Shown here in pieces: positions 38,066 through 49,352 of a DNA stretch of 64,000 nt. How positions within the stretch are numbered: position 1 is the first letter of the stretch; the number at the start of each line of letters is the position of its first letter. The position numbers and the translations under genes are program-made. Where the stretch lies: positions 765,069-829,068 of the forward strand of contig CANLZP010000001.1 of NCBI GenBank assembly GCA_947495695.1, in the 5' to 3' direction. The notes under the pieces are model-generated. The model saw nothing but the letters and a program-made list of their open reading frames with translations. It ran no database searches and was not told the DNA's origin. Source of the stretch: an uncultured Erythrobacter sp. GTDB lineage: Bacteria; Pseudomonadota; Alphaproteobacteria; Sphingomonadales; Sphingomonadaceae.

Positions 38066-38093
38066 CGCGGGTTTAAGAGTTTAGGCTATCAGG

Positions 38094-38127
38094 AAGGGGT
38101 GGTGCATTTTTTGCGCTGCCCCTTTTT
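38094..38127 (+). terminator. intrinsic terminator separating the small ORF from the thr leader
   Basis: 10-bp stem GGGGTGGTGC/GCGCTGCCCC (with wobbles), loop ATTTTTT, then TTTTT. Confidence 0.65.
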
Positions 38128-38143
38128 GCTGGGCGGTAAGGTA

Positions 38144-38172
38144 ATGACATTGAAAGAATCCCTGCCTATATC
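38144..38172 (+). promoter_or_regulatory. candidate sigma70-type promoter for thr leader/thrS
   Basis: ATGACA (5/6 of TTGACA) - 17 bp - TATATC; predicted TSS about 38179-38180. Confidence 0.4.
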
Positions 38173-38179
38173 CCTGCCC

Positions 38180-38251
38180 ATGGCACACATGCTGACCACC
38201 ACGACCACCACCACAACCTCGGTTTTCCGGGGGCGGTTGGTCACGCGTTAG
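38180..38251 (+). CDS. threonine-rich leader peptide of thrS (attenuation)
   Basis: ATG..TAG encoding MAHMLTTTTTTTTSVFRGRLVTR, 8 consecutive Thr codons; an in-frame upstream ATG at 38144 would give 35 aa. Confidence 0.7.
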   Translation: MAHMLTTTTTTTTSVFRGRLVTR

Positions 38252-38299
38252 TCGCAGATCCAGCCACCCCCGGTTTGATCCGGTTTCGGGGTGGCTTGG
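38227..38299 (+). promoter_or_regulatory. attenuator with alternative antiterminator and terminator-like hairpins upstream of thrS
   Basis: CCGGGGGCGGTTGG (38227-38240) pairs with CCAGCCACCCCCGG (38260-38273), one mismatch; competing AGCCACCCC (38262-38270)/GGGGTGGCT (38288-38296). Confidence 0.65.
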
Positions 38300-38399
38300 G
38301 TGTCAGCTTCCCGAAAAAGTGCAGAATAGATGACACCGCCCTTCCGGCGCGTGCCTGCTTGTGGCAGGGCGTCGGTCAAACAGACGGTATGAGATTGCA

Positions 38400-40400
38400 A
38401 TGACACAACTTCTGAAAATCAGCCTGCCCGATGGCTCCGTGCGCGAAGTCGAAGAAGGCTCCACGCCAGCGGACATTGCGGCTGCGATCGGTCCGGGCCT
38501 TGCCAAGGCGGCGCTGGCGGCGCGTGTGGACGGGGAAGTGCGCGACATCGGCCGCCCGTTTGAGGGCGATGCTCAGCTGGAGTTGATCACTGCACGCGAT
38601 GAAGAGGACGCGCTGGAGCTGGTCCGGCACGACTATGCCCATATTCTGGCCGAGGCGGTGCAGGCGTTGTGGCCGGGTACGCAGATCACCTTTGGCCCTG
38701 CAACCGATGACGGGTTTTACTATGACGTGATGGCCCCGGCTGATCGCGATCCGTTCAGCATCGACGATCTGCCCGCAATCGAAGAGAAAATGCGCCAGAT
38801 CATTCAGGCCGACAAACCACTGCGGCGCGAAGTGTGGTCGCGCGAGGCGTTGATCGAGAAATGGTCTGCTGATGGCGAGGCATTCAAGGCAGAATGGGCC
38901 AAGGAACTGCCCGGAAATGAAGAGCTAACGGTGTATTGGTCGGGCGATGACTGGCTCGACATGTGTCGCGGGCCGCATCTGGCCAGCACCGGCAAACTCG
39001 ATCCGCAAGCGTTCAAGCTGTTGCGGGTGGCAGGAGCCTATTGGCGCGGCGATCAGCGCAATGCCCAGCTGACGCGGATTTACGGCACGGGTTGGCTGAA
39101 CAAGAAACAGCTCAAACAGCACCTGCATAATCTGGAAGAGGCAGGCAAGCGCGATCACCGCAAACTGGGCCGCGAGATGGAATTGTTCCACCTTCAGGAA
39201 GAAGCGCATGGCAGTGTTTTCTGGCATCCCAAGGGCTATATGATCTGGCGCGAGCTGGAAGCTTATATGCGCCGCGCGATTGATGAAGGCGGCTATCAGG
39301 AAGTCAAAACTCCGCAGGTGATCGATGCTCGCCAGTGGGAGAAATCGGGCCATTGGGGCAAATATCGCGAGAATATGTTCGTGGTGCCGGACGAGGTTCC
39401 CAACACCGAGGATGAAGGCGGAGTTATCTCTGGCGATGCCGATTGGATGGCGATCAAGCCGATGAATTGTCCGGCCCATGTGCTGGTCTTCAAGCAGGGC
39501 ATCACATCCTATCGCGACCTGCCCTTGCGCATGTATGAAAATGGCTGCTGCCACCGCAACGAGCCTCATGGTGCACTGCATGGATTGATGCGCGTGCGCC
39601 AATTTACGCAGGATGATGCGCATATCTTCTGCACCGAAGACCAGATCATCGACGAGGTGCAAAAGTTCTGCCAGCTGGCGGACCGGGTCTATAAGGACTT
39701 TGGCTTCACCTATAAGATCAAGCTCGCGCTGCGGCCCGAGCAAAGATACGGTTCTGACGAAGATTGGGACAAAGCCGAGTCCGAGCTGCGCCAGGCAGTG
39801 GTTGATGCCGGTATGGCGACCGAGGAATATGGTTGGGGCGAATTGCCCGGCGAAGGGGCGTTTTACGCACCCAAGCTGGAATGGCATTTGACCGATGCGA
39901 TCGGCCGCACATGGCAGGTCGGCACAATCCAGTCAGACCGCGTTCTGCCCGAGCGTTTGGACGCGACCTATGTCGGCGAAGACGGTGGTCGCCATCGTCC
40001 CGTCATGCTTCACCGCGCCATCTTTGGTTCCTATGAACGGTTTATCGGCATCCTGATCGAGCATTTTGCGGGTCGTTTGCCGGTATGGCTGGCTCCGGTC
40101 CAAACGGTTGTCGCGCCGATTGTCACCGACGTGGATGGATATGCCCAAGAGGTTGAGGCCAAGCTGAGAGCAGCGGGCATCCGGGTGGAAACCGACCTGC
40201 GCAACGAGAAGATCAATTATAAGGTGCGCGAACACAGCCTTGCCAAGGTTCCGCATCTGCTGGTTGTAGGCAAGCGTGAGGAAGAAGAGCGCACGGTTGC
40301 GATGCGAACGCTGGGCGAGAAAGAACAGCGCGTGCTGTCGCTTGATGATGCGATTGCATTTTTAACCGAAGCAGCAACACCGCCAGATCTGCGCGGATAA
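38400..40400 (+). CDS. thrS: threonyl-tRNA synthetase
   Basis: TGS domain, class II motifs: [64 protein letters not shown]. Confidence 0.97.
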
Positions 40401-49242: not shown

Positions 49243-49324
49243 CAGGCCGGTAAGGCAGCTGACTGCGCAAAAGAACACCGCTTGGAAGCGGGTATGGACG
49301 TTGGAGAGGATGTCCATTTTAATA

Positions 49325-49352
49325 GGCGGCGGGTCAAACCGTCGCCTTTTTT
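49325..49352 (+). terminator. intrinsic terminator after M23 peptidase
   Basis: GGCGGCGG-GTCAAA-CCGTCGCC-TTTTTT. Confidence 0.8.

Follow-up and report, generated by a model that had tools for sequence, protein, structure and literature searches.

The thrS gene of an uncultured Erythrobacter, encoding threonyl-tRNA synthetase, is preceded by a short open reading frame with eight consecutive Thr codons and by RNA strands able to form alternative hairpins, and this element probably represents a threonine-responsive, ribosome-mediated leader-peptide attenuator of thrS, as judged from sequence comparison. The same interpretation had been put forward in an earlier note on the window (the whole stretch of 64,000 nt from contig CANLZP010000001.1 analysed here), and comparative evidence now supports it. 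As the Thr-codon ORF and the switching hairpins are shared by roughly one third of the genomes sampled from the order Sphingomonadales, a stalling-based sensing of threonine shortage which raises the output of the enzyme is strongly suggested.

According to the model, in which leader translation, ribosome stalling and transcription termination are all inferred, transcription from a promoter P1 would begin at the leader AUG. Scarce Thr-tRNA would cause the ribosome to wait on the Thr codons, covering strand 1 and leaving strand 2 accessible for pairing with strand 3 (helix 2:3), so that helix 3:4 would be blocked and transcription would proceed into thrS. With plentiful Thr-tRNA the ribosome would reach the stop codon and cover strand 2, helix 3:4 would form beside a further helix, 4b:5, and the transcript would be halted before thrS. 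The features are listed in Table 1.

Table 1. Positions of the leader features and their surroundings within the window.
Feature	Position	Strand	Basis or remark
Upstream gene's intrinsic-type terminator hairpin, 5' of P1	38090..38128	+	strong fold, T5 tail
Predicted promoter P1 (ATGACA 38144-38149, 17-nt spacer, TATATC 38167-38172)	38144..38172	+	conserved layout
Leader peptide ORF MAHMLTTTTTTTTSVFRGRLVTR	38180..38251	+	stop TAG 38249-38251; peptide conserved in relatives
Control codons, eight consecutive Thr	38195..38218	+	single such run in the genome
Strand 1, CCTCGG	38217..38222	+	overlaps last Thr codon; partner 38227-38232 (CCGGGG)
Strand 2, CCGGGGGCGGTTGG	38227..38240	+	encodes RGRLV
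Strand 3	38258..38273	+	partner strand 2 (38260-38273) or strand 4 (core 38262-38270, extended 38258-38270)
Strand 4	38288..38301	+	core GGGGTGGCT at 38288-38296
Strand 4b, GGTGTCA, 5' arm of helix 4b:5	38299..38305	+	covariation with 38331-38337
Loop of helix 4b:5, C-rich and G-poor (pyrimidine tract CTTCCC 38307-38312)	38306..38330	+	composition over 48 relatives
Strand 5, TGACACC, 3' arm of helix 4b:5	38331..38337	+	covariation with 38299-38305
thrS-proximal conserved element, possible second promoter P2 (TTCCGG, 17 nt, CAGGGC)	38342..38370	+	by-eye counterparts
thrS, threonyl-tRNA synthetase, 666 aa, regulated gene	38400..40400	+	start ATG 38400 confirmed by homologues

Leader peptide and promoter region

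The leader ORF, its TAG stop and the eight Thr codons agreed base for base with the earlier description, and a short ORF with a codon run matching the downstream gene, a feature of the attenuator class, is found directly before thrS, whose ATG lies 148 nt 3' of the ORF end. When both strands of the whole genome (2,744,596 bases) were searched for (ACN)x6 or longer, the leader was the sole site. The Thr-rich ORFs of relatives comprise about 22-27 codons (e.g. MAKLLTTTATTTTRTTIRGRRRAG), end mostly 125-160 nt before thrS and share the consensus MAxxLTTTxTTTT..RGR... At their Thr positions all four ACN codons occur (ACC 217, ACT 64, ACG 55, ACA 27), indicating that selection keeps the amino acid threonine. 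ACT and ACA account for 18% and 7% of these leader codons, compared to 4% and 3% in thrS genes, and ACG is depleted; this bias may reflect a tuning of the tRNA-Thr that is sensed or the avoidance of unwanted pairing. The RGR motif, part of strand 2, is spelled CGG GGG CGG in 34 of the 38 leaders carrying it, although these codons make up only 15, 13 and 15% of the respective Arg, Gly and Arg codons in thrS genes, which argues for selection on the RNA. That the ORF instead encodes a functional small protein, with the helices as a mere intergenic terminator, would fit the conservation of the peptide including its C-terminal RGR. Of all explanations we consider this the least probable, as the conserved part consists of Thr codons of any spelling and of RNA-selected codons, length and remaining residues vary, and unrelated Thr-rich peptides occupy the equivalent place in other orders.

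The predicted promoter P1, which had not been reported in the earlier note, has a -10 hexamer ending 7 nt 5' of the leader ATG. A comparable layout (RTGACW, 17 nt, TATNNN, with variants) was present in 47 of 47 leader-bearing relatives, with a spacer of 17 nt in 45 of them and a distance of 6-8 nt between the end of the -10 hexamer and the leader ATG in all; a Shine-Dalgarno-like sequence was seen in two only. From this spacing we infer a transcript start at the leader ATG or within 1-2 nt of it. A leaderless mRNA is the probable template for the peptide, by analogy with trpL (rnTrpL) of Sinorhizobium meliloti, where the attenuator mRNA starts at the leader AUG and translation was detected by ribosome profiling (PMC7298713, PMC10117765). 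Upstream of P1, the region 38085-38132 folds with -28.7 kcal/mol (z = -5.6) and a T5 tail, and the terminator located there is predicted to insulate P1 of thrS from the upstream gene. On the other side of the leader, the thrS-proximal element reads CTTCCGG, about 15-17 nt, TGTGGCAGGGC, and counterparts in CTTGCC or TTGACA versions are also seen ahead of thrS where relatives have no Thr leader. The Erythrobacter element showed no match to a promoter consensus; perhaps it is a second thrS promoter bypassing the attenuator, and such a bypass would count against the attenuator reading.

Alternative hairpins of the leader RNA

The pairing positions given in the earlier note were borne out. Strand 2 (CCGGGGGCGGTTGG, 38227-38240) pairs with CCAGCCACCCCCGG (38260-38273) at 13 of 14 positions, with one wobble and one C.A mismatch, and the core of helix 3:4 pairs perfectly (AGCCACCCC at 38262-38270 with GGGGTGGCT at 38288-38296). 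A weak pairing of Thr-codon segments such as GACCACC with GGTTGGTC, also suggested there, does not correspond to the conserved 1:2 helix; it is CCTCGG (38217-38222) and CCGGGG (38227-38232) that form this hairpin, which was missing from that account. Folding predicted the 1:2 hairpin in 48 of 48 relatives with a mean of -11.2 kcal/mol, compared to -6.8 kcal/mol in shuffles, and with -10.2 kcal/mol at the Erythrobacter locus. For the same 48 leaders, helices 2:3 and 3:4 reached means of -24.9 (shuffles -19.0) and -30.7 kcal/mol (shuffles -25.8), respectively, and so exceeded the shuffles on average, although not in each single species. At the locus itself, the hairpin 38256-38304 has -26.1 kcal/mol, which corresponds to z = -3.2 relative to dinucleotide shuffles, and the entire leader folds with z = -2.4.

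As is characteristic of attenuators, helices 2:3 and 3:4 are mutually exclusive, both from their overlapping coordinates and from masked folding in silico. With a ribosome masked at the first or fourth Thr codon the free RNA folded as 2:3, and with the mask at the stop codon as 3:4 together with 4b:5, in agreement with the switch by ribosome position proposed before. Two folding results count against the attenuator reading: masking up to the last Thr codon led to 3:4 and not to 2:3, and the minimum free energy structure of the ribosome-free leader was of a mixed 2:3 type instead of 1:2 plus 3:4. The pairing of the 3:4 core is retained in 94% of the cells, and 11 sequences show a G-C/A-U exchange, but its covariation comes from one pair alone, which likewise counts against this reading. 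RNAalifold on the full leader alignment gave 7 pairs only, which can be explained by strands that are nearly invariant or shift register.

Directly adjoining strand 4, helix 4b:5 had been absent from the first account. Its covariation was 0.320 compared to 0.181 in shuffles (as high in 0 of 500), with 33 cells altered on both sides, and the signal was lost upon sliding. Pairs of arms from within a species outscored pairs across species, with 0 of 2000 permutations to the contrary. Arm variants include GGTGTT/AACACC, GGCGTTT/AAACGCC, GGCATC/GATGCC and TGCGCATC/GATGCGC. The enclosed loop contains C and G at fractions of 0.38 and 0.15, with C exceeding G in 47 of 48 leaders. A 5:6 hairpin with a CTTCC loop appeared conserved by eye and was rejected after systematic examination.

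Several hairpins in a thrS leader could also point to ThrRS repressing its own translation through tRNA-like structures, with an incidental Thr ORF, as there is a precedent for such autoregulation in E. coli thrS (cited in PMC2965389). The conserved attenuator helices stop about 60 nt short of the thrS ATG, however, and the RBS of thrS lies outside them; moreover, such a mechanism would not account for the conservation of the Thr run, of the stop position or of the codons in strand 2, which makes this possibility highly improbable.

Distribution of the leader

A covariance model (R1) built from 48 leaders, all from Sphingomonadaceae, matched 91 of 301 genomes of the order (about a third), with one match each, in 21 of 80 genera and a single family. 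All 30 matches checked are located 55-87 nt upstream of thrS, and no second significant copy was found in the Erythrobacter genome. The position before thrS, together with the Thr run, the place of the stop codon and strands 1-4, is kept among the Erythrobacteraceae, most of the sampled Novosphingobium and scattered relatives: the leader precedes thrS in nearly all genomes of the same genus, in Croceicoccus, Altererythrobacter, Pelagerythrobacter, Parerythrobacter, Allopontixanthobacter, Parapontixanthobacter and Porphyrobacter, and in Blastomonas and a few others. Missing conservation of the run or the helices in related thrS leaders had been named beforehand as what would speak against the attenuator; the comparison was run and conservation was found instead. 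The nearest named record (L031) is also an uncultured Erythrobacter, with a thrS protein 99% identical. When mapped on a ThrRS tree with 80 named records, the leader is present throughout the main Erythrobacteraceae clade and has a patchy occurrence elsewhere; the distribution (24 rows) takes 8 changes, a number as low being found in 0 of 500 shuffles. The absence of the leader from most of the sampled Sphingomonas, Sphingobium and Sphingopyxis, and its loss in a close relative of the same genus (L003), count against the attenuator reading. In another record (L027) the Thr run is kept and the frame is shifted, reading through the hairpins, and in one MAG (L012/L038) the hairpin region is gone, possibly as an assembly artefact.

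Outside the order, a class-wide sample revealed unrelated Thr-rich ORFs before thrS in three other families, with promoter-like sequence near the ATG; leaders of this kind had not been noted in the earlier account. In family f61, 7 of 9 genomes encode Thr-rich peptides (e.g. MTARTTTTATTTRTSCGGP), the RNA arms being GGAGGG/CCCTCC/GGAGGGTTTTTT, and by its sequence this arrangement is a textbook attenuator with a U-run terminator. TTTTTT after the hairpin was seen in seven of nine genomes of one order. In records L230-L235 and L138, from another order, independent leaders rich in Thr and ending in U6 terminators lie about 190-330 nt ahead of thrS, and the model R1 gave a weak score of 23 bits on L230. 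Short peptides ending in TTVRT or similar are common in family f62, with 3-5 Thr only, and a different control is possible for these leaders of weaker Thr content. A conserved ORF of this type with a GGCCGGG...CCCGGCC hairpin immediately behind it was observed before thrS in L136 and L239-L266. In family f48 a Thr-rich leader was detected in two genomes only. As far as these sequences indicate, control of thrS by Thr leaders has thus probably evolved more than once.

Mode of termination and relation to known systems

None of the 48 aligned leaders has a U-run after 3:4, with a maximum of 5 T in any 8 nt, so that the missing clean U-tract noticed earlier at this locus turned out to be general. 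For this reason the element was not assigned to the classical intrinsic-termination subclass, and Rho-assisted termination in the C-rich region 38306-38330 appears somewhat likelier than intrinsic termination. The C-rich, G-poor loop of 4b:5 would fit Rho loading, and in Zymomonas, likewise a sphingomonad, intrinsic terminators account for no more than about a third of the 3' ends (PMC7566282). Alternatively, sensor and switch could be the same with 3:4 as a degenerate intrinsic terminator, for which a pyrimidine tract would suffice in a high-GC genome, rendering Rho dispensable. The pyrimidine run after the stem is indeed longer than in shuffles (mean 7.8 compared to 5.0 in the 48 leaders), and a classical U6 terminator closes the Thr leaders found in another alphaproteobacterial order, but the tract consists of T to 38% only, and true U-runs are used elsewhere in the same genome, with clean examples at 49324-49347 and 38090-38128. 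We regard this alternative as rather unlikely. Less probable still is a post-transcriptional action, in which the Thr-dependent ribosome position would alter leader stability, processing or sRNA release, like rnTrpL in Sinorhizobium. The pair of neighbouring stable hairpins at the 3' end and the leaderless attenuator sRNA known from alphaproteobacteria (PMC7298713) would be in line with it, but the conserved exclusivity of 1:2, 2:3 and 3:4 is what a termination switch requires, and no processing site was identified in the leader. The more complete proposal, with Thr-dependent stalling controlling a Rho-type termination via 3:4 and 4b:5 around the C-rich loop, a leaderless mRNA, and thrS leaders acquired independently in several alphaproteobacterial orders, is put forward tentatively and is, as a whole, judged rather less likely than not.

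In the Rfam scan of the leader no family, T-box included, reached its gathering score, and Thr_leader (RF00506) gave 15.5 bits (gathering score 55; E = 4). The pheM leader of E. coli pheST is an attenuator controlling an aminoacyl-tRNA synthetase gene. Like E. coli thrL of thrABC (RF00506) and pheM, the Erythrobacter leader combines a short ORF rich in cognate codons with strands 1-4 and the alternative of 2:3 or 3:4, and like pheM it precedes a synthetase gene. In contrast to these classical systems, it would control thrS, contains Thr codons without an Ile mix, is predicted to be leaderless, lacks a U-run and has the extra helix 4b:5. The proposed thrL-thrS of Streptomyces lividans is also a Thr leader before thrS that is predicted to be leaderless, with a hairpin without U-rich sequence (PMC8079986); it has two Thr only in 18 aa (MKRVRPFLETTPGFVPAR), belongs to the Actinobacteria and shows no sequence resemblance that we could see. 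S. meliloti trpL shares the alphaproteobacterial background and the mRNA start at the leader AUG, which is predicted here, but senses Trp, controls trpE(G) and is drawn with a transcription terminator. For Caulobacter crescentus, again an alphaproteobacterium, a small translated leader CDS is reported before trpS (PMC4117421), which likewise encodes an aminoacyl-tRNA synthetase, with Trp in place of Thr. E. coli thrS autoregulation and the Firmicutes thrS T-box likewise tie thrS expression to the threonine-charging state, but rely on protein-RNA or tRNA-RNA binding without a leader peptide. No thrS leaders from Alphaproteobacteria were found in the literature, although Lopatovskaya et al. 2010 (cited in PMC4833913), reportedly a comparative study on attenuation of aminoacyl-tRNA operons, may contain an earlier prediction. 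Apart from helix 4b:5, all deviations from the textbook scheme therefore have a precedent. New are helix 4b:5, the length of the Thr run, the breadth of conservation and the way in which the features are combined, part of which that study may have predicted.

Control of thrS has so far been known to occur by ThrRS binding to its own mRNA or by T-boxes. The conserved poly-Thr leader would add a third, ribosome-based route in Alphaproteobacteria, which would allow thrS to respond to the charging level that thrS itself creates. A classical layout without a U-run but with a second covarying helix offers a testable case of attenuation without intrinsic termination, and as one lineage has the U-run and another does not, a direct comparison is possible.
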